64,000 bases of DNA from Faecalibacterium hattorii (GTDB lineage: Bacteria > Bacillota > Clostridia > Oscillospirales > Ruminococcaceae), in the NCBI RefSeq assembly GCF_003287455.1, contig NZ_PRLC01000006.1:1-64000 (forward strand). Reading direction: 5' to 3'. The translations under genes and the position numbers were made by a program. The notes under the pieces were generated by a model, which did not search any database, had not been told where the DNA came from, and worked only from the letters and a program-made list of their open reading frames with translations. Shown in pieces: positions 730-12,917 of this stretch. Every line of letters begins with the position of its first letter. The stretch's first letter is position 1.

Positions 730-806
730 GCCTCTTTAGCTCAGTCGGTTAGAGCACCTGACTGTTAATCAGGGTGTCGCCTGTTCGAGTCAGGCAAGAG
801 GCGCCA
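730..806 (+). tRNA. tRNA-Asn (anticodon GTT), CCA encoded
   Basis: The acceptor stem pairs GCCTCTT (730-736) with AAGAGGC (796-802), followed by discriminator G803 and an encoded CCA (804-806). The anticodon arm is CCTGA-CTGTTAA-TCAGG, giving anticodon GTT for asparagine. The T arm is GCCTG-TTCGAGT-CAGGC. It has its own promoter and terminator, so it is a single-gene transcription unit. Confidence 0.97.
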
Positions 807-923: not shown

Positions 924-952
924 TTGAAGAAGCTGTCAGATTGTGGTATACT
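924..952 (+). promoter_or_regulatory. Promoter upstream of the MAM exporter
   Basis: TTGAAG (924-929), a 17-bp spacer and TATACT (947-952), with an extended TGG just before the -10. It lies about 330 bp upstream of the exporter start, so the transcript would have a long structured leader. A second weaker candidate, TTGTGT (1171-1176) - 17 bp - TAGAAT (1194-1199), sits closer to the gene. Confidence 0.7.
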
Positions 953-959
953 GCACCTA

Positions 960-1280
960 AGCTTTAGGAAGTTTTCCTGAAGCGATGAACCGATCAAAGG
1001 GTAGGCGCTCCCTTCTTTTTGATAGCAGCTTGGCCTCTGCTTTGCCTTGGTTCTCCGCAGGGCAGGGCAAAGCAGAGGGCTATGCGCTGCTTTTTGAGAG
1101 CGAAGAACCTTTCTCCTGCGTCAAAATCTGCTGAAGATGCTCTGCATTTGCGGTGCGCACAAAGTTTTGCTTGTGTATTTGACCGTATTGTGCTAGAATA
1201 TGGGAGGCAGTTTTGAATATTAGAAAGTTGAAGAGAGATCGTTTCCCATTGGTTGTCGGTCTCTTGTAAAGGAAACATCT
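960..1280 (+). promoter_or_regulatory. Long structured 5' leader of the exporter gene
   Basis: No credible gene is seen in these roughly 320 bases. A short stem, AAGGG with CCCTT (about 996-1016), is followed by CTTTTTG and could be a weak attenuator. A strong inverted repeat follows: CCTCTGCTTTGCC (1034-1046) pairs perfectly with GGCAAAGCAGAGG (1066-1078) around a 19-nt loop. The exporter ribosome site, AAAGGAAA, lies just before ATG 1281. Whether the stems act as attenuator, protein site or processing site is not known. Confidence 0.45.
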
Positions 1281-3674
1281 ATGCGTTATACCTATGTGCG
1301 GCAGCACGACACGACCGACTGTGCAGCTGCCAGTCTCGCAATGGTGTGCCTCCATTACAAAAAGGAAATCACCATCACCCGCTTACGCGACATGATGGGT
1401 ACCGACATGAAGGGCACGAACCTCGTGGGTCTGCAGAAAGCCGCCAATGAGATGGGCTTCAACACGGCAGCTGTCCGTGTGGACCGCGAGAACTTTTTAA
1501 GTGATTTTACGCTTCCCTGTATCGCACAGGTCATTACGGATCAGGGCATGACACACTTCGTGGTGGTCTTCAAAAAGACCACCATCAAGGACGACACCGC
1601 CCGCCACAAGCATGTGCAGCAGGAAGAGGAACGCAAGGCCGATAAGACCAAGAAGTATAAATGCAAGGACACCGTGATCATCGGCGACCCGGCAAAAGAC
1701 CTTGAGAAGATCAGCCTTGATGAGTTCTATAAGAACTTTACCGGCGTGTTGCTGCTGCTGAACCCGACTTCCGAGTTCAAGGGCGGCAAGGCGAAAAAGT
1801 CCACCAGTGTCAACGGCACCGCGAAGGACGATGGTAAGGGCAAGGAAGAGTTCAGCTACAAGGAAGGCAAGCACCGCATGTTGAAGCGGTACATCGACCT
1901 GTTGTGGCCGCAAAAGAAACTCTTTTTCTACGCTATCCTCAGTTCGGTGATCCTGACGGTGATCGGCATCGTCTCCACAGTGTTCAACAAGGCGCTGATG
2001 GACGAGGTGCTCCCGTACGGATTGAAGAACTTGCTCGTCTCCTTGATCATCGTGTTCAGCGTGGTCAACCTCACCAGCAACCTGCTCAGCACGGTTCGCG
2101 AGTGGATCTTGATCTTCCTGTCCATCAAGGTAGACATCCCGTTGATGATGGGCTACTTCGAGCATGTGTACAAACTGCCGATGAAGTTCTTCGCAACGCG
2201 GAAGACCGGCGAGATCACCACCCGCTACTCCGATGCAAGCACCATCAAGTCCGTTCTGACCAGCATGGCGATGAGTATCGTCATGGACGTGGTCATGGCG
2301 CTGGGTGTGGGCGTCGTGCTGTTCCGGATGAACTCCACGCTGTTCTCCCTCACCTTGTTCAGCACCGCGCTGAGCTTCCTGCTCGTCATCATCTTCAAGC
2401 AGCCGTACAAGCGGATCAATGAAGAAACGATGCAGCAGTCGGCGATCCTGAACAGCCAGATGATCGAGAGTCTGCGCGGCATTGAGACCATCAAGTGCAA
2501 TGCGTGCGAAGACCGCGAACTGGAAGCGCTGGAACGGGAGTACATCAAGAGCCTGAAGATCAGCCTCCGGTCCAGCAAGATCAGCACCGGGCAATCCCTG
2601 ATCTCCACCGTTATCACCACGGTGCTGGGCATGGTCACGACCTATGCCGGTATCATGCAGGTGCTGAACGGCGACCTGACGCTGGGCGGTTACATGGCGT
2701 TCAGCACGCTTTCGGGCTACTTTACTTCTCCGGTGAGCGACCTGATCGGGATGCAGATGTCGATTCAGGAAGCTGATATCTCTATGAAGCGTCTGACCGA
2801 GATCATGGACTACGAGTCCGAGCAGTCGGAAGACGAGGAGCACACCGAGATGGAGCAGATCGAGGGCGACATCGAGTTCAAGGATGTTACCTTCCGGTAT
2901 GGCAACCGCAACCCCGCACTGAACCACATCTCCTTCACGATCCCGCAGGGCAAGAAGGTGGCGCTGGTGGGCAGCAGCGGCAGCGGCAAGTCCACCATCA
3001 CCAAGCTCCTGCTCAAGTATTATGAGCCGGAGAGCGGCGAGATCGATGTGAATGGCATCAACCTCGACGAGTACACCAACGCATCGGTGCGCCGCGCGAT
3101 CTCTTACGTTCCGCAGAATGTCGAGCTGTTCAGCAAGACTCTGTTTGAGAATATCCGCATTTCCAACCCGAACGCCACCATGGAACAGGTGAAGGAAGCA
3201 GCGAAGAAGGCCGATGCACACGAGTTCATCCGCAAGCTGCCGCTGCAGTACAACACCTACTTGGAGGAAGCCGGCAACGGCCTGTCCGGCGGTGAGAAGC
3301 AGCGGATCGCTCTGGCACGAGCTTTCCTGAAGGACTCGAACCTCTATATTCTGGACGAATCGACCAGCAGTCTGGATTTTGGCACAGAGAACACCATCTT
3401 TGACATGATCTACAACCAACTGGCTGATAAGTCGATGCTCATTGTGGCCCACCGCCTGTCCACCATCCGCGATTGTGACCTGATCTTGGTCATGGATCAC
3501 GGCGAGATCGTGGAGCGCGGCACCCATGAGGAGCTGCTGGAGAAAAAGGGCAAGTATTACGAGCTTTGGAACCTCCAGCAGGGCATCTTCCGCCATAAGA
3601 AGGAAGCGCCCAAACCCGTGGCAGCGGCCGTTGTCGAGGAAGATGACGACGGTGAGGAGGCCATTACTTATTAA
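1281..3674 (+). CDS. Peptidase-containing ABC exporter (C39 peptidase - TMD - NBD), probable MAM exporter
   Basis: A 797-aa exporter of the bacteriocin/PCAT type. The N-terminal C39 peptidase (about 1-150) cleaves double-glycine leaders. Gln8 and Cys14 (QHDTTDCAAASL), His92 (THFVVV) and Asp136 (IIGDPA) fit its active site. Transmembrane helices span about 210-500. The nucleotide-binding domain has Walker A GSSGSGKST with Lys570, signature LSGGEKQ, Walker B LYILDE and an H-loop AHRLS, so it looks fully active. Unusual are a charged Lys/Glu-rich insertion (about 98-130) between catalytic His and Asp, and a second charged linker (about 165-205) before the first helix. The gene lies 107 bp upstream of a double-glycine precursor, its likely substrate. 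Confidence 0.95.
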   Translation: MRYTYVRQHDTTDCAAASLAMVCLHYKKEITITRLRDMMGTDMKGTNLVGLQKAANEMGFNTAAVRVDRENFLSDFTLPCIAQVITDQGMTHFVVVFKKTTIKDDTARHKHVQQEEERKADKTKKYKCKDTVIIGDPAKDLEKISLDEFYKNFTGVLLLLNPTSEFKGGKAKKSTSVNGTAKDDGKGKEEFSYKEGKHRMLKRYIDLLWPQKKLFFYAILSSVILTVIGIVSTVFNKALMDEVLPYGLKNLLVSLIIVFSVVNLTSNLLSTVREWILIFLSIKVDIPLMMGYFEHVYKLPMKFFATRKTGEITTRYSDASTIKSVLTSMAMSIVMDVVMALGVGVVLFRMNSTLFSLTLFSTALSFLLVIIFKQPYKRINEETMQQSAILNSQMIESLRGIETIKCNACEDRELEALEREYIKSLKISLRSSKISTGQSLISTVITTVLGMVTTYAGIMQVLNGDLTLGGYMAFSTLSGYFTSPVSDLIGMQMSIQEADISMKRLTEIMDYESEQSEDEEHTEMEQIEGDIEFKDVTFRYGNRNPALNHISFTIPQGKKVALVGSSGSGKSTITKLLLKYYEPESGEIDVNGINLDEYTNASVRRAISYVPQNVELFSKTLFENIRISNPNATMEQVKEAAKKADAHEFIRKLPLQYNTYLEEAGNGLSGGEKQRIALARAFLKDSNLYILDESTSSLDFGTENTIFDMIYNQLADKSMLIVAHRLSTIRDCDLILVMDHGEIVERGTHEELLEKKGKYYELWNLQQGIFRHKKEAPKPVAAAVVEEDDDGEEAITY

Positions 3675-3679
3675 GTTGC

Positions 3680-3699
3680 AATCGAGTGCGCACTCGATT
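3680..3699. promoter_or_regulatory. Perfect 20-bp palindrome between exporter and precursor genes
   Basis: AATCGAGTGCGCACTCGATT is perfectly self-complementary and starts 5 bp after the exporter stop codon. No T-run follows, so it is not a standard terminator. It could be a dimeric regulator site or an RNA structure that sets the precursor-to-exporter mRNA ratio. A second stem follows: GGCTTTT (about 3710) with AAAAGCC (ending about 3743). Confidence 0.5.
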
Positions 3700-3781
3700 A
3701 CATAAAAACGGCTTTTGGAAGGTTGCGCAGCCGGAAAAAAGCCTCAAATTCGATTCAATCATTTGAAGGGAGTAATTCATT

Positions 3782-4237
3782 ATGATGATGCCTGCAAACT
3801 ACTCTGTTATCGCAGAGAACGAGCTGTCCTATGTCGAGGGCGGCGCATCCTTTATCGACTGGGTTGGCGATCGCACTGCTACCGTTTGGACTGCTGCTAA
3901 CGTCAAGACCTTCAACACCAACGTTGTGACCATCGTTGGCAACGCTTTCGTTGACGACATGGTCCACAACACTCTGGGCTATGTCTTCGGCGGCAACGCT
4001 AACTGGAAGGGCATTGGCGATGCTTTCAAGGGCTTCTTCGTTGCTAAGAACAAGAACGTCGGCGACTCTATTGCTCACACTCTGGGCAATGTTGCTGCTG
4101 TTTACCTGCTGGGCAACACCACTGTTGCTAACAAGGCTGGCGACGTGAAGCTGAAGGCTGGTAGCCCCGCTTCCAAGACCTTCTCCTACCTCGGCGAGGA
4201 TGGCAATTGGAAAGAGATTTTCAAGGTCGTTGGCTAA
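3782..4237 (+). CDS. mam: MAM-like secreted protein precursor with double-glycine leader
   Basis: A 151-aa precursor. The leader is MMMPANYSVIAENELSYVEG plus a second Gly; the ELSYVEGG pattern is the classic signal cut by C39 exporters. Cleavage after Gly21 would leave a roughly 130-residue, hydrophobic, Ala/Asn/Gly/Val-rich protein of about 14 kDa without Cys. The start and the ASFIDWVGD / WTAANVKTFNTN segment match my memory of the Microbial Anti-inflammatory Molecule of F. prausnitzii, reported to dampen NF-kB signalling in gut cells. Ribosome site GAAGGGAG lies 9 bp before the first of three in-frame ATGs. The gene follows the C39 exporter and has its own terminator. Exporter-substrate pairing is inferred from order and leader type. 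Confidence 0.88.
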   Translation: MMMPANYSVIAENELSYVEGGASFIDWVGDRTATVWTAANVKTFNTNVVTIVGNAFVDDMVHNTLGYVFGGNANWKGIGDAFKGFFVAKNKNVGDSIAHTLGNVAAVYLLGNTTVANKAGDVKLKAGSPASKTFSYLGEDGNWKEIFKVVG

Positions 4238-4320
4238 TTTGGCTTAACAACTAAATAGAAAGAGTATTTCATTTGCACCGCCCTACTTGTTAGGCGGGGC
4301 TGATGACAATGCCTCGTAAT

Positions 4321-4363
4321 GGTGTGCCAGGAGGCGTGAGCCTTCTGGCACACCTTATTTTTA
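4321..4363 (+). terminator. Rho-independent terminator after mam
   Basis: GGTGTGCCAG pairs with CTGGCACACC across a 14-nt loop and is followed by TTATTTTTAT. A smaller stem, CCGCC with GGCGG, lies at about 4279-4297. Confidence 0.85.
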
Positions 4364-4484
4364 TAGCGTCACTTATTATGTGCCCCGCAACGCTCCGCGC
4401 CCGGTGAGGGCTTTGTCGTAAACCGGATGCAACGGCGGGGAGGGGCGGTAATAGGTGATCGTGTGTGGAAAAATAAAACCATTT

Positions 4485-4547
4485 GCTCTATCGCAAGTGC
4501 TATCTGTCCTATCGCAAGTGTAAGCTGCTCCATCGCAAGTGCAATCT
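4485..4547. repeat. Three tandem 21-bp units
   Basis: Three imperfect 21-bp units at 4485-4505, 4506-4526 and 4527-4547 share the core CATCGCAAGTG or CTATCGCAAGTG. No reading frame uses them sensibly. The 10-mer TATCGCAAGT also begins the 96-bp repeats at 57037 and 62712. Confidence 0.75.
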
Positions 4548-4558
4548 AAACGGACGCG

Positions 4559-4800
4559 GTGCGCCGCCGTGAGCGGGCTTGCCCTCTCCGTCATCGCTTG
4601 CGCGATGCCACCTCTCCCAAAGTGAGAGGCCTTGGCAGTCCGCCAAGTTTGCAGTTCGGTACTTTACGCCCTGCTGCCGCAAAGGAGCCGTCAGGCGCTA
4701 CGCGGAAACTTTCCGCCTTTGCCAAGGGCTCTCCCTTTGGGAGAGCTGGCGCGAAGCGCCTGAGAGGGCAAGGACGCTGACGGGGAGACGACTGGTTGGT
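4559..4800. repeat. Interspersed GC-rich repeat, copy C
   Basis: Same order of blocks as copy B, including GCTTGCCCTCTCCGTCATCG, GAGAGGCCTTGGCAGTCCGC, CTTTACGCCCTGCTGCCGC and GGCGCGAAGCGCCTGAGAGG. Open frames over this repeat are judged spurious. Confidence 0.8.
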
Positions 4801-4867
4801 TTAGATGACGCTTACGATGGGGCAGACTTCCGAAAGCCTCAATCTAAACTGACGCGGTACGTTCTTG

Positions 4868-5100
4868 TGAGCGGGCTTGCCCTCTCCGTCATCGCTTCGC
4901 GATGCCACCTCTCCCAAAGTGAGAGGCCTTGGCAGTCCGCCGAGTTTTCGGTTTAATACTTTACGCCCTGCTGCCGCAAGGGGAGCCGTCAGGCGCTGCG
5001 CTCAGACTTCACGCCTTTGCCAAGGGCTCCCACTTTGGGGGAGCTGGCGCGAAGCGCCTGAGAGGGCGAGGACGCTGGCGGGGAGACTTCGCCTCAGTTT
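4868..5100. repeat. Interspersed GC-rich repeat, copy D
   Basis: Fourth copy, separated from copy C by the same linker (TTACGATGGGGCAGACTTCC, ATCTAAACTGACGCGGTACG) that separates copies A and B. The A-B and C-D pairs therefore look like two instances of one larger composite unit. Confidence 0.8.
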
Positions 5101-5171
5101 AGCAGATGCGTATGATAGGGCAGACCCAAGAAACGGCAGAAAGGGGCATTTTTGTGAAGGAAACCACGGTT

Positions 5172-5519
5172 GTGAAAAACAACAAAATGCTTCCGGTTGC
5201 CCGAAGATTGCGCCGTGAAATGACCTTATCAGAGCAACACCTTTGGTTTCGCTTTCTGCGCTCCTACCCAGTAAAAATCTACAAACAGCGGATCATTGAA
5301 TCTTTTGTGGTAGATTTTTACTGTGCGGAAGCACGATTGGTTATTGAATTGGACGGCTTACAGCATTATACTGAACAGGGGAAGGCTTACGACGAAGAGC
5401 GGAGCCAGATCCTGCGCGAGTATGGCTTGAAGGTATTGCGCTTTTCCAACCGCGAGGTGGAACAGCAGTTCGATGTGGTGTGCGAGAAAATCCATCAAGA
5501 GATTCAAGCGAGGGTGTAG
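5172..5519 (+). CDS. DUF559 domain protein (endonuclease-like fold)
   Basis: About 115 aa from GTG 5172, chosen because AAGGAAA lies 8 bp upstream; an in-frame ATG at 5106 lies in repeat DNA and lacks a ribosome site. Core residues LPVARRLRREMTLSEQHLW, the FVVDFYC strand, VIELDG and the end LRFSNREV are typical of the DUF559 family, which is related to Vsr-like/PD-(D/E)xK nucleases. The D of VVDFY and the E/D of VIELDG match the usual acidic residues. Members of this family are often found stranded between repeats. Whether this one cuts DNA is not known. Confidence 0.82.
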   Translation: MKNNKMLPVARRLRREMTLSEQHLWFRFLRSYPVKIYKQRIIESFVVDFYCAEARLVIELDGLQHYTEQGKAYDEERSQILREYGLKVLRFSNREVEQQFDVVCEKIHQEIQARV

Positions 5520-5591
5520 GATAACAATTTCCCCTTTCCCACAGACGATCACCCATTACCATAAAATCTAATGAAACAGGTGGACAAAACG

Positions 5592-6047
5592 ATGAGAGAA
5601 ATTCAAGTTGCAGAACACAAGACCCTGAAGCTGACCAACGTGTTGGCGCGGAAGGTGGACGGCAGCGAGCTGGGCAACCTGCCCGTGGTGCTGACCCAGA
5701 TGCAGAACTTTATCCGCAGCCACAACGCCATGCCCGTTGGCCCCATCATCCAGTGCGTTAAAATGCGCACCGGCCCCAACCCCACGGCGGACATCTACTT
5801 TATGCAGCAGGTCAACCAGTTGATCACCCGGCTGGACCCCGGCTACGAGATGGACGCGGTGCTGCGTGTGCGCAACTGCCTCTACGCCCACTATGTCGGC
5901 CCCATGGATCACAGCAGCCTCGCCAGCCAGAAGCTCGACATCTATGCCTTTGAGAACGAGATCGAGCGCACCGGCGATGTGTACAGCATCTATGTCAATC
6001 AGGACGAAGACGAAGGCGTGCTTGACGTCTTTATGGAGACCAAATAA
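5592..6047 (+). CDS. Conserved small protein in the MAM export cluster
   Basis: 151 aa from ATG 5592, preferred over ATG 5571 because CAGGTGG lies about 8 bp upstream. It is soluble, with no signal peptide or membrane segment. The pattern (a start like REIQVAEHKTL, then MPVGPIIQCVKM and a final VYSIYVNQ) resembles the effector-binding (GyrI-like) fold, but I cannot place it firmly. It is separated by only 2 bp from the HlyD-like adaptor gene, so the two are almost certainly co-translated. A role in the export unit, as cytoplasmic chaperone, sensor or immunity factor, is inference from position only. Confidence 0.7.
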   Translation: MREIQVAEHKTLKLTNVLARKVDGSELGNLPVVLTQMQNFIRSHNAMPVGPIIQCVKMRTGPNPTADIYFMQQVNQLITRLDPGYEMDAVLRVRNCLYAHYVGPMDHSSLASQKLDIYAFENEIERTGDVYSIYVNQDEDEGVLDVFMETK

Positions 6048-6049
6048 TT

Positions 6050-7159
6050 ATGACGACCATTCAGAATCTTTCCGATCTGCAGGATCGCCGCATCATGATG
6101 GAGAAAAAGCTGCCGCCCTTCGGCTATGCGATGATCCTCCTCGTGGCATTCCTGCTGGTGTTCCTGACCATCTGGAGCACCAAGAATTACCGCACCTACG
6201 TCAGCCAGTCGGTCGGCACCGTGCAGGCAAGCAATAAAACCTACATCATGTCCAGCTACTCCGGCACCCTGACCGAGCTGAACGTCTCTGAGGGTAGCTA
6301 CGTCAACGAGGGCGACCTCATTGCCCACATCAAGAGCACGGACATCGATATGCAGACCGACGGCTACAAGAGCCAGCTGGAGATCTACGAAAAGCAGAAG
6401 TCCCAGTACGAGAAGCTGCTCAAGTCCATTCAGGACGACAAGAACTACTTCAGCGAGACGGATATCGACGATCAGCCGTACTATTATCAGTACGAGAACT
6501 ACAAGAGCCAAGTACAGCAGAAGGCCTTTGACGCTTCGCCCTATCAGGCCGCGGGCTACTCCGAGGAGCAGATCAAGGCCCTGATGGAGCAGAACCAGAG
6601 CGAGATCGAGTCACTGTACTACTCCACTTTGCAGTCGGTGACCGCGAACCTGACCAGCGTTCAGGCCAACATCGACAACCTGCAGACCCAACTGGACGCA
6701 CTGGAAAGCGGCGCGAACGATTACTATATCTATGCCCCCACCTCCGGCGTCATCCACATGGACACCCCCTACAAGGAGGGCATGGTGCTGAGCGCCGGTT
6801 CCGCGCTGGCCACCGTCGCCAGCGAGAACAGCGACCTTGAGGTGGTGGCGGCCCTGACCGTCAGCGACCGGCCCCTCGTCAACGTGGGCGACCCATGCAA
6901 GATCGCCATCACCGGCCTGTCCGAGTATTCCTACGGCAACCTGACCGGCACCGTCACTTCCATCGACAGCGATGTGACCTCCAGCACGTCCGGCTCCTAC
7001 TACAAGATGACCATCAAGCCCAACAGCACCTATGTGGTGAGCAACGGCGGCGACAAGGTCGATCTGGCCAACGGCATGAGCGTGACCGCCCGTGTCGAGT
7101 ACGACGAGCTGACTTACTTCGACTACGTGATGGAGGCTCTGGGCGTTTTGTTCCGTTAA
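6050..7159 (+). CDS. HlyD-family adaptor (membrane fusion protein) of the exporter
   Basis: 369 aa. One N-terminal membrane helix (about 24-43, after a short cytoplasmic arm) is followed by a lipoyl-like half (VGTVQASNKTYIMSSYSGTL, VSEGSYVNEGDLIAHI). A coiled coil follows (about 100-220, with QTDGYKSQLEIYEKQKSQYE and later SVQANIDNLQTQLDALES). The second lipoyl half (YYIYAPTSGVIHMD) leads into a beta-barrel region. This is the accessory protein that partners C39 ABC exporters in Gram-positive bacteria and crosses the cell envelope. It is the only such adaptor in the window and lies 2.4 kb downstream of the exporter, so joint function is likely though not proved. Confidence 0.88.
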   Translation: MTTIQNLSDLQDRRIMMEKKLPPFGYAMILLVAFLLVFLTIWSTKNYRTYVSQSVGTVQASNKTYIMSSYSGTLTELNVSEGSYVNEGDLIAHIKSTDIDMQTDGYKSQLEIYEKQKSQYEKLLKSIQDDKNYFSETDIDDQPYYYQYENYKSQVQQKAFDASPYQAAGYSEEQIKALMEQNQSEIESLYYSTLQSVTANLTSVQANIDNLQTQLDALESGANDYYIYAPTSGVIHMDTPYKEGMVLSAGSALATVASENSDLEVVAALTVSDRPLVNVGDPCKIAITGLSEYSYGNLTGTVTSIDSDVTSSTSGSYYKMTIKPNSTYVVSNGGDKVDLANGMSVTARVEYDELTYFDYVMEALGVLFR

Positions 7160-7198
7160 ACAGCGTCCGTAAACCAACGCCCAAAGAGGTACGATAGA

Positions 7199-8686
7199 AT
7201 GAAATTGAACCCGAAACAGTTGGCCGTAAGCGCCGCGCTGCTCACCCTGCTGGCCGCAGGGGCCGCGCTGCCCGCCACAGCCGCCAGCCCCATTTCTGCT
7301 CCCGCGGCCATCACCTTCCCGTGGAGCGTCGTCGCCACCGAGAGCGTGGAGACCGGCGATTATGCCGCCTCCATGACCGTGGGCACCGCGCAGCAGCTTT
7401 CGCCGGTGGTCACCCCCGCCAAGGCCGCGAAGCGCAACGGCGTCAGCTACGTTTCCGATAACCCGAACATCGTCTCGGTGACGGAGGACGGCGTGGTACA
7501 GGCCGTCGGCCTCGGCACGGCCCAGATCACGGCCACCTGCGGCGGCGTGAGCTGCACCTATGCCATCACCACCCAGCCCGACAGCACGATGATCGCCACC
7601 GAGATGGACATCACGCTGGCGTCCAGCACCATCGCGGTGGGCGATCACACCAACGTCTCGCTGGCGGTCCTGCCCACTACGGCGGCAAATTACATCAATG
7701 TGACGCTGACTTCTTCCGACCCCAGCGTGGCCACCGTCAACAACTTCGGCAAGGTGACGGGCATCGCCCCCGGCAAAGCGACCATCACGGCTTCCACCGG
7801 CGATGTGAGCTGCTCGGCGACGGTCACGGTGGTGGCGGCGCCCAGCTCCAGTACCGGCGCGGCGGAGTCCCTCTCCCTGAACACGAACTACCTCGTGCTC
7901 AAGCCGGGCGCGTCCGGCAAGATCACCGGCTCGGTGGCACCCTCCACGGCGTCCCAGTCCCTGACCTTCACCAGCCGCGATAAGAGCATCGCCACCGTCA
8001 GCGCCAGCGGCGTTGTTACCGGCGTTTCCACCGGTGCGACCTCCGTGGTCGTCTCCAACGGCACGGTCTCTTCGTCGGTGACGGTCATCGTCAACCGCAC
8101 GGCGTCTTCCAGCAGCAACGGCGGCACCGCCGACGGCGACGGCACCGAACCCGCCGACGGCGACCCCATCGTGAACGCCATCGAGAATGCGGCGTCGGAC
8201 ACCATCTCCTACCCGCAGGAGCAGGTGCCGGTGATCACCACCGAGATGCTCAACGCCCTGCGCACCACGGGCCGCACCCTCGTGCTCGACGCCAAGGACT
8301 ACACCCTGACCGTGGACGGCAGCGCTATCCGCAACACCACCAGTGAGATCGCCACCGCGCTGACCTTTACGCAGGACGAGAACGGCCTCCGCTTTACCCT
8401 GAACGACGGCGGCGAGATGCCCTGCGGGGTGCAGATCGCCCTGACCGGGGAGAATGCAGCCTACAGCCGCCTCTACCTACACAACAGCGTCAGCGGCAAG
8501 TGGCAGTTCCTGAACAGCTACAAGGACGGCGTCCTCCACGCCGATGTGGCGGGCGAGTACCTGCTGACGAACCAGAATCTGCGGTTCACCAGCATCAACT
8601 GGACCTTCTTCATCGGGGCCGGTGTAGTGGTCGTCGCCTGTCTGATCGCCTATATCGCGGTCAAGAAGCGGTATTGGTTCTGGTAA
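7199..8686 (+). CDS. BIG2-repeat surface protein with signal peptide and C-terminal membrane anchor
   Basis: 495 aa. The signal peptide (about 1-29) ends in ATAAS. Three bacterial Ig-like group 2 repeats follow at about 60-125, 137-212 and 224-298. Each closes with the family pattern SVTEDGVVQAVGLGTAQIT, SVATVNNFGKVTGIAPGKA or SIATVSASGVVTGVSTGAT. A Ser/Gly/Asp linker leads to a further beta-rich domain (about 330-465). A membrane helix (about 467-487) and a short basic tail (KKRYWFW) complete it, so it should sit on the outer face of the membrane. It lies 39 bp after the HlyD-like gene with ribosome site AGAGG. In this setting it may be a wall-spanning conduit or anchor for the exporter, which is inference. 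Confidence 0.85.
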   Translation: MKLNPKQLAVSAALLTLLAAGAALPATAASPISAPAAITFPWSVVATESVETGDYAASMTVGTAQQLSPVVTPAKAAKRNGVSYVSDNPNIVSVTEDGVVQAVGLGTAQITATCGGVSCTYAITTQPDSTMIATEMDITLASSTIAVGDHTNVSLAVLPTTAANYINVTLTSSDPSVATVNNFGKVTGIAPGKATITASTGDVSCSATVTVVAAPSSSTGAAESLSLNTNYLVLKPGASGKITGSVAPSTASQSLTFTSRDKSIATVSASGVVTGVSTGATSVVVSNGTVSSSVTVIVNRTASSSSNGGTADGDGTEPADGDPIVNAIENAASDTISYPQEQVPVITTEMLNALRTTGRTLVLDAKDYTLTVDGSAIRNTTSEIATALTFTQDENGLRFTLNDGGEMPCGVQIALTGENAAYSRLYLHNSVSGKWQFLNSYKDGVLHADVAGEYLLTNQNLRFTSINWTFFIGAGVVVVACLIAYIAVKKRYWFW

Positions 8687-8752: not shown

Positions 8753-9196
8753 TTACTTCGATTCAATCGTGCCTTCGCCGTCCAGCGCTTCCTCCAGCGT
8801 GTGCCACGCGAGGACCGCGCACTTGACGCGGGCGGGAACATGGGCGATGCCCTGCAGCGCGGCGGCGTCTTCGAGGTCGTCGAGCTGCTCCGGGGTGATC
8901 TTGCCCTTGATCATATCAAAATACAGGCCGATGAGGCGGCGTGCGTCCTCCACGGTGCGGCCCTTCACGAGGTCGATCATCAGGGAGGCCGACGCTTGGG
9001 AGATGGCGCAGCCGGTGCCGATGAACCCGGCGTCCTCAATGACGCCGTCCTTGACCCGCAGCTGAAGGGTGATGTCGTCGCCGCAGCTGGGGTTGACGCC
9101 CTCAAGGCTGTGGGTGGCCCCCTCGACGGGGTGGCGGTTCTCCTTGCTGCGGCTGTTTTCGGTAATGATCTGGGTGTAAAGCTCGTTCAGATTCAT
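8753..9196 (-). CDS. sufU: SufU-type Fe-S scaffold / sulfur-transfer protein
   Basis: 147 aa from ATG 9196, which overlaps the sufS stop as ATGA. The three conserved cysteines are present (NPSCGDD, GTGCAIS, VKCAVLAWHTLEEAL), as is the DD that helps bind zinc. In Gram-positive bacteria SufU accepts persulfide sulfur from SufS and passes it to the SufBCD scaffold. It is the last gene of the sufCBDSU operon, and the stop lies close to the bidirectional terminator at 8704-8736. Confidence 0.95.
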   Translation of the reverse strand: MNLNELYTQIITENSRSKENRHPVEGATHSLEGVNPSCGDDITLQLRVKDGVIEDAGFIGTGCAISQASASLMIDLVKGRTVEDARRLIGLYFDMIKGKITPEQLDDLEDAAALQGIAHVPARVKCAVLAWHTLEEALDGEGTIESK

Positions 9197-10410
9197 AAAC
9201 CCATCACCTTTCGTACATTTTCGAGATTGTTCAGCAGCGCGTCGATGTCTTCCGGCGTGTTGTAGATGGCCACGCTGGCGCGGCAGCAGGAGCCGATGCC
9301 GAGGAAGTCCATCAGGGGCTGGGCACAGTGGTGCCCGGCCCGGATGGCCACGCCGCCCGCATCCAGAATGGTGGCGACGTCGTGGGGGTGGACGTCCTGC
9401 ACATTGAAGGACACCACGCCGAACCGCTTGGCGGCGGTGGGGTCCCCGTACACGGTCAGCCACGGCATATCGGCCATGCCCTTGAGCATCCGCTCCAGCA
9501 GGGCGTGCTCGTGATCCATCATGGTCTGCCAGCCGATGTGGTCGATGTAGTCCAGCGCGGCGGCAAAGCCCACCTCGCCGCCCACGTTCCGGGTGCCCGC
9601 CTCAAACTTGCGGGGGCCCTCGGCCCATGTGGCGCTGTGCTCATGGACCGCGCCGATCATGTCGCCGCCGCTGAGGAAGGGGGGCATCTTGTCCAGCAGC
9701 TCCCTGCGGGCGTAGAGGGCGCCCATGCCCATGGGGGCGTAGAGCTTGTGGGCGGAACAGGCCGCGAAATCCACGTCCAGCGCCTTCACGTCCACGGGCA
9801 TGTGGGGCGCGCTCTGGGCGCAGTCCAGCACCACGACGGCCCCGACAGCGTGGGCGCGGGCCACGATCTCTTCCACCGGGGCCCGCAGCCCCAATACGTT
9901 GGACACCATGCCGATGGCCACGAGCTTGGTCTTGGCGGTGATCTTCCGGTCCAGCTCATCGGTGGTCAGGCGGCCGTCCGGGCCGGGGTAGAGGTACACG
10001 AGGGCTGCGCCCGTGGCCTCGGCCACCCGCTGCCACGGCACGAGGTCGGAATGGTGCTCCGCGACCGAGATCACGATCTCGTCGCCCGCGTGCAGGAAGT
10101 GGAGCCCGTAGCTGTAGGCCACAAGGTTCAGGGACTCGGTGGTGTTCTGGGTGAAGACGATCTCATCGTCCTCCGCGTGGAAGAACTGGGCCACCCGGTG
10201 CCGGGCCCCCTCGTGGGCGTCGGTGGCCCGCATGGCGAGGTCATACACGCCCCGGTGGGGGTTGGCGTTGTCGTGGGTGTAGTAGCGGGTCACGGCGTCC
10301 AGCACCTGCGTGGGGTGCTGGGTGGTGGCGGCGCTGTCCAGATAAACGAGCCGGGTGCCGTTTTCGTCGGCGCTCAGGATCGGGAAATCCTTAATCCATG
10401 GATTCTGCAT
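9193..10410 (-). CDS. sufS: SufS cysteine desulfurase
   Basis: 405 aa from ATG 10410, which has GCAAGGAGGC just upstream; a longer upstream open frame has no ribosome site. It is a PLP enzyme converting cysteine to alanine and a protein-bound persulfide. The PLP lysine is Lys222 (CSAHKLY) and the catalytic cysteine is Cys362 (RAGHHCAQP). VYLDSAATTQ and EHHSDLVPW are typical group II motifs. The start lies 20 bp inside the sufD 3' end, and the stop overlaps the sufU start, so expression is tightly coupled. Confidence 0.97.
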   Translation of the reverse strand: MQNPWIKDFPILSADENGTRLVYLDSAATTQHPTQVLDAVTRYYTHDNANPHRGVYDLAMRATDAHEGARHRVAQFFHAEDDEIVFTQNTTESLNLVAYSYGLHFLHAGDEIVISVAEHHSDLVPWQRVAEATGAALVYLYPGPDGRLTTDELDRKITAKTKLVAIGMVSNVLGLRAPVEEIVARAHAVGAVVVLDCAQSAPHMPVDVKALDVDFAACSAHKLYAPMGMGALYARRELLDKMPPFLSGGDMIGAVHEHSATWAEGPRKFEAGTRNVGGEVGFAAALDYIDHIGWQTMMDHEHALLERMLKGMADMPWLTVYGDPTAAKRFGVVSFNVQDVHPHDVATILDAGGVAIRAGHHCAQPLMDFLGIGSCCRASVAIYNTPEDIDALLNNLENVRKVMGL

Positions 10411-11479
10411 CGTCGAGCCTCCTTGCTGCCGCCTCGCGCACTTCGTCCTGAAGCGCCGCGAGGGGAATCTTTTCGATGGCCGGGGCAAAGCGGGCGTCCA
10501 CCATCAGGCGGCGTGCCTGTTCCTCGGAAAGGCCGCGGGAGCGCAGGTAGTAGAGCTTGGCCTCATCCAGCCGCCCGATGGAGGCAGCGTGCTGGCCCTC
10601 GACTTCTTCTTCGCCGCAGAGGATCAGCGGCGCGGTGCGGTTGCGGGCGGCGGGGCTGAACAGCAGCACGTCCTCGCTCTCGTGGCCGACGCTGCGCTTG
10701 GCACCCCGGCGGAAGTCGATGGTGCCGCGCAGGATCTTATCGGCATGGCCGGTCAGGACGCCGGCAGTGTGCATCTCGCACAGGGTGTCCTTGGCGGTGT
10801 GAACGGAGACATCGTTGTAATCCAGCACGGCGTCGCCGCTGCCGAAGTAGACGGCATCAAGGTCGTACTCGCTCTTGGAAGCGGCGAGCTGTGCCTTGGC
10901 ACCGCATGCCGAGAGGGCACCGCCCAGCTCGATGCGCACCTGCTCCACCTTGGCGCTCTTGGCTTCCTCGATGGCGACGGCGTTCCAGCGGCGGGCGTGG
11001 GAACCCAGCAGCTGCACCTGCACCAGCTTGACGTGGGCGTTCTCGCCCGCGCGGATGCGGGTGAGGGAAGCGGCGGCACCGTTTTCCGCGTCGCCCCGCA
11101 CCACCTGCACCACGGTCAGGCTGCTGCCCGCCTTGGCGTCCACGGAAAGGACGCTCAGGGCGTTGGGGTGGGCAGCGTCCAGCGTGACCTCAAAGAGGGC
11201 GGGCGCTTCCACCTTGGTATCTTCGGCCACTGTCAGCGCATGGCGGACGGTGGCATTTTCCAGCAGATAGGTATCGACGGCCTCGCCCATGCCGCTCTCC
11301 GAAAAGGCGGTGAAGTCGTTCTCGGCTTCGCCGACCCCGGCGGGCAGGGTGAAGGCGATGTTCGCTTCACCCCAGTCGTCGCCGGGGATCTCCGGCAGCG
11401 CCGCTGCTTTGGGAGCGCTGTTGACGCCGCACTGGTTCCAAGTAGGAACCGGCAGACGATTCATGTTCAAGTCATTCAT
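10391..11479 (-). CDS. sufD: SufD, Fe-S cluster assembly scaffold subunit
   Basis: 362 aa. The C-terminal half has the SufB/SufD beta-helix pattern, with HTAKDTLCEMHTAGVLTG, GTIDFRRGAKRSVGHES, and the family end LYYLRSRGLSEEQARRLMV. It forms the SufBC2D complex with SufB and the ATPase SufC. The gene starts 19 bp after sufB. The N-terminal region is shorter and less conserved, as is usual for SufD. Confidence 0.93.
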   Translation of the reverse strand: MNDLNMNRLPVPTWNQCGVNSAPKAAALPEIPGDDWGEANIAFTLPAGVGEAENDFTAFSESGMGEAVDTYLLENATVRHALTVAEDTKVEAPALFEVTLDAAHPNALSVLSVDAKAGSSLTVVQVVRGDAENGAAASLTRIRAGENAHVKLVQVQLLGSHARRWNAVAIEEAKSAKVEQVRIELGGALSACGAKAQLAASKSEYDLDAVYFGSGDAVLDYNDVSVHTAKDTLCEMHTAGVLTGHADKILRGTIDFRRGAKRSVGHESEDVLLFSPAARNRTAPLILCGEEEVEGQHAASIGRLDEAKLYYLRSRGLSEEQARRLMVDARFAPAIEKIPLAALQDEVREAAARRLDDAESMD

Positions 11480-11498
11480 AACACTTCCGGCCCTCCTT

Positions 11499-12917
11499 TC
11501 AGCCGATGCTACCCTTCATTTCGAGGTGGATGAGGTTGTTCATCTCCACCGCGTACTCCACGGGCAGCTCCTTGGCAATGGGTTCTGCAAAACCGCCCAC
11601 GATGAGGGCGCGGGCATCCTCTTCGCTCAGGCCGCGGCTCATCAGGTAGAAGACCGCTTCCTCGCTGATGCGGCCGATCTTGGCTTCGTGGCCCACATCC
11701 ACCGCGTCGCAGCGGATGTCCATCTCCGGGATGGTGTCGGAGCGGGAGCGGTCGTCCAGCATCAGGCTCTCGCAGGAGACGGCGCTGCGGCTGTTCTTCG
11801 CGCCCGGCAGCACCGTGACGGAGCTGCGGAAGTTCGAGATGCCACCGTCCCGCGCGATGGACTTGGTCGTGATGTGGGAACTGGTGTTGGGGGCCGCGTG
11901 GACCACCTTGGCACCGGTGTCGAGGTCCTGCCCGGCACCCGCAAAGGTGATGCCGGTGAACTCCATCCGGGCACCCTCGCCCGCCAGAATGCTCATGGGG
12001 TAGAGGCAGGAGGTATGGGAGCCGAAGGAACCGGAGACCCATTCGATCGTGCCGCCCTTTTCCACCTTGGCGCGCTTGGTGTTCAGGTTGTACATGTTCT
12101 TCGACCAATTCTCAATGGTCGAGTAGCGGACGCGGGCGTTCTCGCCCACGTAAATTTCCACGCAGCCCGCATGGAGGTTGGCCACGTTGTACTTCGGGGC
12201 CGAGCAGCCTTCGATGAAGTGGAGGTAGGCACCCTTGTCCACGATGATGAGGGTGTGCTCGAACTGGCCCGCACCGGGGGCGTTCAGGCGGAAGTAGGAT
12301 TGCAGCGGGATCTCCACATGCACCCCGGCGGGAACGTACACGAAGGAGCCGCCGCTCCACACCGCCCCGTGCAGGGCCGCGAACTTGTGGTCGGTGGGGG
12401 GCACCAGCTTCATGAAGTGGCTCTTGACCATGTCGGCGTAGGGGCCGGTGAGGGCGCTTTCCATGTCGGTGTAGACGACGCCCTGCGCGGCCACCTCTGC
12501 TTTGACGTTGTGGTAGACCACCTCGGAGTCGTACTGCGCACCCACGCCGGCCAGCGAAGCCCGCTCGGCCTTGGGAATGCCCAAGCGCTCAAAGGTGTTC
12601 TTGATGTCCTCCGGCACCTCGCTCCACTTGCCCCGCATCTCGGTGTTGGGGCGGACGTAGGTGACGATATTGCGCATATCCAGCCCTTCGATGGAAGGGC
12701 CCCAGTTCTGCACCGGCATCTTGTTGTAAATTTCAAGGCTCTTCTGGCGGAACCCACGCATCCACTCCGGGTCGTGCTTTTCCTCGGAAATTTTGGCCAC
12801 GATGTCGGGTGTCAGGCCGGAATTTACCTCAAAGGCGGCGTTTGCGGCGTCCTTGATGTCGTAAATGCTGCGGTCCACTTCGGCAACATCGGTCTTTTCG
12901 GTCTCAAAGGCTCTCAT
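11499..12917 (-). CDS. sufB: SufB, Fe-S cluster scaffold
   Basis: 472 aa, the usual length for SufB. Recognisable segments are PDIVAKISEEKHDPEWM, PVQNWGPSIEGLDM, SFVYVPAGVHVEIPLQSYF, HFIEGCSAPKY and the end FYLMSRGLSEEDARALIVGG. It is the main scaffold on which the nascent cluster is built, with SufC driving conformational change. It overlaps the sufC stop by 4 bp (ATGA), so the two are translationally coupled. Confidence 0.97.
   Translation of the reverse strand: MRAFETEKTDVAEVDRSIYDIKDAANAAFEVNSGLTPDIVAKISEEKHDPEWMRGFRQKSLEIYNKMPVQNWGPSIEGLDMRNIVTYVRPNTEMRGKWSEVPEDIKNTFERLGIPKAERASLAGVGAQYDSEVVYHNVKAEVAAQGVVYTDMESALTGPYADMVKSHFMKLVPPTDHKFAALHGAVWSGGSFVYVPAGVHVEIPLQSYFRLNAPGAGQFEHTLIIVDKGAYLHFIEGCSAPKYNVANLHAGCVEIYVGENARVRYSTIENWSKNMYNLNTKRAKVEKGGTIEWVSGSFGSHTSCLYPMSILAGEGARMEFTGITFAGAGQDLDTGAKVVHAAPNTSSHITTKSIARDGGISNFRSSVTVLPGAKNSRSAVSCESLMLDDRSRSDTIPEMDIRCDAVDVGHEAKIGRISEEAVFYLMSRGLSEEDARALIVGGFAEPIAKELPVEYAVEMNNLIHLEMKGSIG

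Follow-up and report, generated by a model that had tools for sequence, protein, structure and literature searches.

We analysed a 64,000-nucleotide stretch of DNA from Faecalibacterium hattorii (assembly GCF_003287455.1, contig NZ_PRLC01000006.1, positions 1 to 64,000; hereafter the window), which opens contig C49 of a 2.79 Mb genome and carries mam, the gene for a MAM-type precursor protein, close to a gene for a peptidase-containing ATP-binding cassette (ABC) exporter, PCAT (Table 1). A sequence-only reading had described this region as a MAM export locus. Open reading frame (ORF) translations and family searches place all the named genes (PCAT, mam, SML, HlyD and BIG2) on the + strand and where that reading had put them. 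It had counted four further genes at 5592–8686; the region holds three, and the DUF559 gene stands between mam and them. As first described, the locus is mostly a rediscovery, since the gene set and a proposal of a transport function are already in print (Auger 2022, PMC8836110).

Table 1. Features of the exporter-mam region of the window
Feature	Position	Strand	Basis and remarks
tRNA-Asn(GTT)	730..806	+	ARAGORN; habitual upstream neighbour of the cassette
Promoter-like site 5' of the exporter	924..952	+	Consensus scan, 9/12, TG ahead of second hexamer; predicted site, the score carries no functional proof
PCAT, C39-peptidase ABC exporter, 797 amino acids	1281..3674	+	Pfam, TIGR01193
mam, MAM-type precursor, 151 amino acids, MMMPAN...VEGG	3782..4237	+	ORF translation; relatives in 26/31 genomes
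Double-glycine leader of the MAM precursor, 21 amino acids	3782..3844	+	Alignments A4, A6
Terminator-like hairpin 3' of mam, 15 pairs	4321..4354	+	Hairpin scan
DUF559 gene, outside the core block	5106..5519	+	Pfam DUF559, 100.7 bits
SML, small soluble protein, predicted GyrI-like (duplicated SHS2) fold	5592..6047	+	Alternative start 5571
HlyD-type adaptor, 369 amino acids	6050..7159	+	HlyD_3; starts 2 bases past SML
BIG2 surface protein	7199..8686	+	Hydrophobic N terminus, three Big_2 stretches, C-terminal beta-rich domain, membrane helix
Conserved BIG2 C-terminal tail KKRYWFW	8663..8683	+	Alignment A7; [YH]WFW in relatives

The exporter upstream of mam is complete, as had been proposed. The Pfam families C39 (PF03412), ABC_membrane (PF00664) and ABC_tran (PF00005) all scored over their cut-offs, and TIGR01193 matched at 578.6 bits (cut-off 523.85); cleavage of the leader itself is predicted. 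The best PDB sequence match of PCAT, 4ry2, covers residues 192–766 only and is what we take to be PCAT1 of Acetivibrio (Clostridium) thermocellum, likewise a C39-containing ABC exporter for double-glycine cargo. The same identification is made in the accessible part of PMC12184118, and the catalytic residues of PCAT (P0001; Q8, C14, H92 and D136) are at the positions named there. The adaptor matches HlyD_3 at 69.1 bits (cut-off 22.2), and against the bacteriocin secretion accessory family TIGR01000 it (P0005) scored 89.8 bits, below the cut-off of 258.85. BIG2 matches Big_2 at 103.9 bits (cut-off 22.8). The small soluble protein, the HlyD-type adaptor and the Ig-like protein expected downstream of mam are all present. 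The structural model of BIG2 (predicted local distance difference test, 79.9; predicted template modelling score, 0.34) has beta-rich domains, a helix at residues 468–494 and a low-confidence stretch past the N-terminal helix. After the basic end of the membrane helix, all 25 complete BIG2 relatives listed, and the window protein, end in [YH]WFW, and six of the 25 come from outside the genus, with 24–31% identity to the window BIG2 (alignment A7 contains the window protein and 16 of 26 listed relatives). Because this conserved end adjoins the membrane, it suggests contact with the export machine.

We compared gene order in 31 Faecalibacterium genomes. Close orthologues of PCAT, SML and HlyD are present in 26 of these, a MAM-type gene is present in the same 26, and a close orthologue of BIG2 is present in those 26 and in G025. 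The order PCAT-SML-HlyD-BIG2 is kept in 26 of 26 genomes, with HlyD immediately after SML in every case; the sharing of this block in the same order by 26 of 31 genomes indicates that the locus is beyond chance. The block is absent from G018, G019, G020, G026 and G025, the last of which is 77% complete and has BIG2 near a contig end. The sequence-only reading had staked its case on such a comparison of gene order, and mam and the exporter occur without the genes at 5592–8686 in none of the 26 genomes, indicating that the adaptor, the small protein and BIG2 belong with the exporter. By contrast, these genes are not tied to mam. In 18 of the 26 genomes, mam (one gene or two) is found either in the interval from PCAT to SML or immediately 5' of PCAT; in the other eight (G008, G011, G013, G017 and G027–G030) mam is elsewhere, with the four-gene block still together, and in six of those (G011, G017, G027, G028, G029 and G030) it is on the contig of the block, ~66 to 750 kb off. 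Hence, the proposal that the further genes are part of MAM secretion holds for their link to the exporter and not for a link to mam. The DUF559 gene is adjacent to the block in only 6 of 26 genomes, and we reject it as a component of the machine. Among the genus genomes, the relative of the window mam in G014 has 64% identity over residues 1–142, with weaker relatives in the others. The tRNA-Asn gene is upstream of PCAT in 24 of 25 cassette loci checked, the exception being L014, where the contig ends. In a metagenome-assembled genome (MAG), the first mam-type gene (L020, 4683–5021) has neither the double glycine nor the beginning of the body, through an error or a real change, and in G028 the exporter (L026, 2063–4389) is split over two frames of 203 and 603 amino acids, through an assembly error or a real break.

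The MAM precursor (P0002) begins with MMMPAN, 11 further residues and VEGG, consistent with the published motif MMMPAN-x(8,11)-V-x-GG (accessible part of PMC12184118). In loci outside the genus, described below, genes located in the PCAT-SML interval or downstream of BIG2 bear a MAM-like leader, and their bodies differ. P4, E14, G20 and G21 are invariant in the leader alignment (A6) and M15 and Y17 are nearly so, the window MAM having L at position 15; most leaders follow the consensus hydrophobic-P-x-x-[YF]-...-E-[ML]-x-Y-x-x-GG. Leader model A4 at E ≤ 1 matched 27 of the 31 genus genomes, that is, the 26 with the block and the incomplete G025, and gave no match in the four other block-less genomes (G018, G019, G020 and G026). 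In the order sample, SML was found in 5 of 394 genomes, and the leader, at E ≤ 1e-5, in exactly those five; the cut-off was our own choice, and G223, the genome of L068, passes it at 9.5e-6. The broader leader model A6 matched 14 of the 15 distant SML genomes, a test that is partly circular because its rows come from 12 of the 15 distant loci (none from L064, L067 or L076); G421 (four matches) and G424 (one match) match A6 though neither supplied rows. Alignments A2 and A4 contain 28 and 19, respectively, of 42 MAM or leader matches, and A3 contains 15 of 26 HlyD sequences.

At E ≤ 1, six leader matches occur in the window's genome, on C49 (MAM), C36 (two), C6, C43 and C29; the weakest of the six has E 0.013, and an additional weaker match lies beside the C43 gene. 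The translated bodies of the leader genes outside the window contig look unlike MAM. PCAT is the sole C39 gene found in this genome, suggesting that all of the leader genes use it. A single C39 ORF, appearing as two pieces of one frame, is present in every one of the 26 genomes with the block, and the block-less G020 has a different C39 frame of 293 amino acids.

A contig scan with the SML alignment (two peptide patterns, 80 candidate stretches) yielded 34 loci, 19 from Faecalibacterium and 15 from elsewhere. HlyD directly follows SML in 11 of the 15 distant loci. We observed the order PCAT-SML-HlyD-BIG2 in L062, L065 (Acetivibrio alkalicellulosi), L066, L072 and L073 (BIG2 cut by the contig end); the block is cut by contig ends in L064 and in L067 to L071, and L074 has a different gene order. 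L067 is from a Coriobacteriales MAG, in which contamination is possible. In a phylum sample, SML was found in 4 of 398 genomes, namely the window's own, G691, G490 and G797. Overall, the block occurs in other Clostridia and in one Coriobacteriales MAG, and we conclude that the system is real but sparse. Since the block follows the exporter and not mam, which is unlinked in 8 of 26 genomes and gives way to quite different cargo in other genera, the label of MAM export locus is too narrow. At L071 (4166–8567), leader frames alternate with partial copies of the exporter 3' end, as if cargo had been duplicated with a piece of PCAT. The PCAT-SML-HlyD set of L147 (4963–16411) has four leader-type frames interleaved with small membrane proteins, and a gene next to it resembles what we take to be a site-specific recombinase. 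At L148 (8379–8906), an SML relative lies beside a gene that by translation is response-regulator-like, with no exporter or leader in the surrounding 18 kb.

These distributions are consistent with a reading that we consider probable, in which PCAT, SML, HlyD and BIG2 form a multi-cargo export machine of the bacteriocin type with a cytosolic holdase, and MAM is one specialised cargo. Dedicated secretion of MAM, in which the four genes would export it and assemble an S-layer-like lattice and the other leader ORFs would be minor paralogues, accounts for the presence of MAM-type genes in exactly those 26 of 31 genomes that carry the block, and for MAM being the most abundant envelope protein and forming a hexameric surface lattice, as reported in the accessible part of Rodrigues 2025 (PMC12184118). 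We regard dedicated secretion as unlikely, however, because the block has other cargo with the same leader in other genera, because of the unlinked mam genes, and because five more leader matches lie in the window's genome outside the window contig.

The SML reading frame ends at 6047 and starts at 5571 or 5592; M8 of the longer frame is an invariant column of the family, and 5592 is the more likely start. We built SML alignments from all 26 genus sequences (A1) and from 29 of the 34 scan loci plus the window (A5; L054, L058, L075, L076 and L077 were left out). A PDB sequence search gave one match, at E 0.2, with the A1 profile and none up to E 10 with A5; since neither search gave a usable match, we examined the fold by prediction. 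The confident model is GyrI-like, with a duplicated SHS2, and has the fold of the superfamily. The structures closest to it are the drug-binding GyrI-like domains CTR107, EcmrR, CtaZ and BmrR; structures of ExiB and TipE are not among the 50 fold-search matches listed, which is uninformative either way. The best Pfam similarity of SML is to DUF5085 (E 1.5e-4) over GyrI-like (E 0.0016), both below the cut-off. In the accessible parts of PMC12744356 and PMC10434224, DUF5085 proteins are cytosolic proteins that guard against glycine-zipper toxins, and ExiB is termed GyrI-like. ExiB and TipE resemble SML in being small soluble proteins encoded beside exported membrane-active cargo; they differ in serving type VII secretion, and the similarity of SML to their family is below the Pfam cut-off. 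We therefore draw only a weak likeness, that SML may work like a DUF5085 protein, and do not call it a member of the family. Alternatively, SML could act on export as a ligand sensor or a regulator, by gating it or reporting on it, rather than as a cargo holdase. Small-molecule binding is the usual role of GyrI-like folds, so a ligand-sensing SML is conceivable; this would fit the drug-binding domains among the nearest structures and the response-regulator-like gene that adjoins the SML relative of L148. Nonetheless, a sensor seems improbable to us, given that SML consists of one domain and has no DNA-binding part, that it accompanies the exporter and HlyD in all 26 of the genus loci, and that its best Pfam similarity is to DUF5085 and not to GyrI-like.

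We next considered the cargo as a set. From the retrieved loci only, we collected 94 cargo ORFs (35 MAM-type, 39 other Faecalibacterium and 20 distant), each with GG present, a body of 35 residues or more and a leader match at E ≤ 1e-3; among those dropped were the GG-less mam of L020, short-leader genes of L004 and a short frame of L075. Glycine, alanine and serine together make up 29.1% of MAM-type, 29.4% of other Faecalibacterium and 35.8% of distant cargo, as compared with 21.7% of 34 control ORFs from the window. The pattern [GAS]xxxGxxx[GAS] was found 67 times in MAM-type cargo (41.0 expected) and 54 times in distant cargo (29.9 expected), in both cases a count reached by 0 of 500 shuffles, and 24 times in controls (18.7 expected, 69 of 500 shuffles), although counts of this kind are inflated by related sequences. 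For plain GxxxG, only distant cargo shows an excess (43 vs 31.5 expected, 7 of 500 shuffles), with 36 vs 29.2 in controls (53 of 500). A zipper-like reading thus appears fair for distant cargo and mixed for Faecalibacterium. Membrane-like stretches are present in 3 of 35 MAM-type, 28 of 39 other Faecalibacterium and 12 of 20 distant cargo proteins and in 14 of 34 controls; these numbers, and the counts of neighbouring genes below, depend on hydropathy and Shine-Dalgarno rules of our own choosing. Ten cargo proteins were compared with Bacteriocin_IIc (PF10439): that of L070 scored over the cut-off (29.7 vs 27.1 bits), L078, L065 and L072 gave weaker matches and six gave none. The window MAM (P0002) scored 21.6 bits, below the cut-off.

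Of 20 distant cargo genes, 12 have a gene for a small membrane protein no more than 250 bases downstream, as compared with 19 of 140 same-locus controls (Fisher p = 1.6e-5, cargo genes within one locus not being independent). Because such genes follow distant cargo, the wider system resembles a bacteriocin system with immunity genes, and outside Faecalibacterium it looks like a bacteriocin exporter. An ordinary bacteriocin export locus, with SML as the immunity protein and BIG2 as an unrelated downstream surface protein, would fit these immunity-like membrane genes, as well as the class II bacteriocin arrangement of a C39 exporter, HlyD and double-glycine cargo, but is distinctly unlikely in our judgement, since the BIG2 WFW end is invariant across genera despite 24–31% identity in the six extra-genus relatives, and since there is one intact SML per cassette locus though cargo genes are several and diverse.

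For the multi-cargo machine that we favour, gene order, co-occurrence, the leader family and the predicted SML fold are what the analysis established; every functional step is inferred. Cargo would be synthesised with a double-glycine leader as its shared mark. In the cytosol, SML might hold the glycine/alanine-rich cargo, preventing its insertion into the producer's own membrane or its aggregation. The C39 domain of PCAT would then cut behind GG and the ABC part would export the cargo, with HlyD linking the exporter to the outside. BIG2, putatively anchored by its one membrane helix with the conserved WFW end, may organise or retain cargo at the surface. MAM would be one specialised and abundant cargo, and leader genes elsewhere in the genome would share the sole C39 exporter.

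In addition to the small-molecule binding usual for the fold of SML, several observations weigh against this reading. At the level of the cargo, [GAS]xxxGxxx[GAS] shows no clear excess in other Faecalibacterium cargo (28 vs 22.6 expected, 79 of 500 shuffles), and plain GxxxG is not in excess in MAM-type (76 vs 68.0, 63 of 500) or other Faecalibacterium cargo (26 vs 23.9, 175 of 500). A membrane stretch, tried as a common property of the cargo, fails for MAM (3 of 35) and was rejected. Small membrane-protein genes follow 0 of 35 MAM-type and 3 of 39 other Faecalibacterium cargo genes, as compared with 13 of 246 controls, and one of the three is itself a leader-type frame (L092); no immunity-like genes are evident beside the cargo of the Faecalibacterium branch. 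For SML, matches to DUF5085 (PF16895) at E ≤ 1 were found for 4 of 30 sequences, with 22.7, 18.5, 16.6 and 14.0 bits against a cut-off of 30, one of them a short, out-of-register stretch, and matches to GyrI-like (PF06445) at E ≤ 1 for 2 of 30 (L064, 19.2 bits; L066, 17.4 bits; cut-off 26). The block is also not uniformly complete: L075 has SML and a leader frame with no HlyD within ~10 kb downstream, SML is broken or cut in L076 and L077, G691 (L147) has PCAT, SML, HlyD and four leader-type frames with no WFW-ended protein, G490 (L148) has a stand-alone SML relative without a cassette, and G797 (L149) has a broken SML copy. Co-occurrence of the leader and SML at the order level rests on two genera, since four of the five genomes are Faecalibacterium and the fifth passes narrowly (9.5e-6). 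Lastly, one operon for the whole locus is unsupported, and unlikely because of the terminator-like hairpin after mam.

Parts of the proposed machine have been described. For F. prausnitzii A2-165, the accessible part of Auger 2022 (PMC8836110) places mam between DUF559 and PCAT and reports a three-ORF cluster, two members of which resemble an Ig-domain protein and an HlyD-type adaptor; in many genomes this cluster is found near PCAT, mam and PCAT are separate in several strains, and a common transport function is proposed for PCAT and the three ORFs. The A2-165 region and ours thus share the same genes, the same transport proposal and a mam that is sometimes elsewhere; by contrast, the fold of the third ORF, other leader cargo, the WFW end and extra-genus relatives are not described in that part of the article. 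In Rodrigues 2025 (PMC12184118), PCAT is proposed to cut the MMMPAN...VxGG leader and to export MAM to the envelope, the cleavage being modelled; as far as the article is accessible, the basis for cleavage of MAM by PCAT is modelling together with proteomics in which the leader is hardly detected. That article differs from our account in giving the MAM-PCAT pairing as Faecalibacterium-specific, and its main text does not contain the words HlyD, bacteriocin or chaperone. The closest functional parallel found appears to be Cdz of Caulobacter (PMC5380434), likened here by description and not by sequence. Its small glycine-zipper proteins leave the cell through a type I system and stay on the producer surface; it differs in being Gram-negative and in having membrane-protein immunity, and parts like SML or BIG2 are unmentioned in the accessible text. 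Among the matches listed in a search of the open-access literature (titles and abstract starts, with subscription papers and preprints outside its scope), Auger 2022 and Rodrigues 2025 are the two found to treat this locus, and SML, the WFW end and the leader outside Faecalibacterium are undescribed, a silence that is weak evidence of novelty.

Relative to this literature, the shared leader, the several cargo genes, the GyrI-like SML, the WFW end and the occurrence outside the genus extend the account and are worth follow-up. We tentatively suggest, as a possibility somewhat short of an even chance, that they belong to an undescribed multi-cargo secretion system of Clostridia and relatives, consisting of a C39 exporter, HlyD, a WFW-ended BIG2 and a dedicated GyrI-like guard in the cytosol, with a bacteriocin-like root and with MAM turned abundant envelope protein in Faecalibacterium. 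If this is true, the anti-inflammatory effect of MAM on the host would be incidental to a system that acts at the surface or in competition. MAM has received much study as a candidate effector of a major gut commensal; if the exporter serves the whole leader-tagged set and also occurs in bacteria with bacteriocin-like cargo, MAM ought to be viewed and studied as one among the products of a general surface-secretion machine. The analysis names SML and the BIG2 WFW end as new parts that can be tested, together with candidate secreted proteins of Faecalibacterium, and ABC-exporter systems may include a counterpart of the type of guard found in type VII secretion.

Further features of the window lie around or across the cassette. 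Terminator-like sites across the region number eight, as compared with a mean of 7.6 in shuffles, and so are not in excess. Diverged copies of a ~300-base repeat border the exporter-mam stretch, two at 1–600 and two behind mam at 4542–5125, and might help to explain the mobility of mam and DUF559. On the - strand at 8753–12917, genes pointing toward the cassette have translations that resemble those of what we take to be Suf iron-sulphur assembly genes. An open frame of 699 amino acids lies antisense to the exporter (1497–3596, - strand) and is probably a shadow frame.

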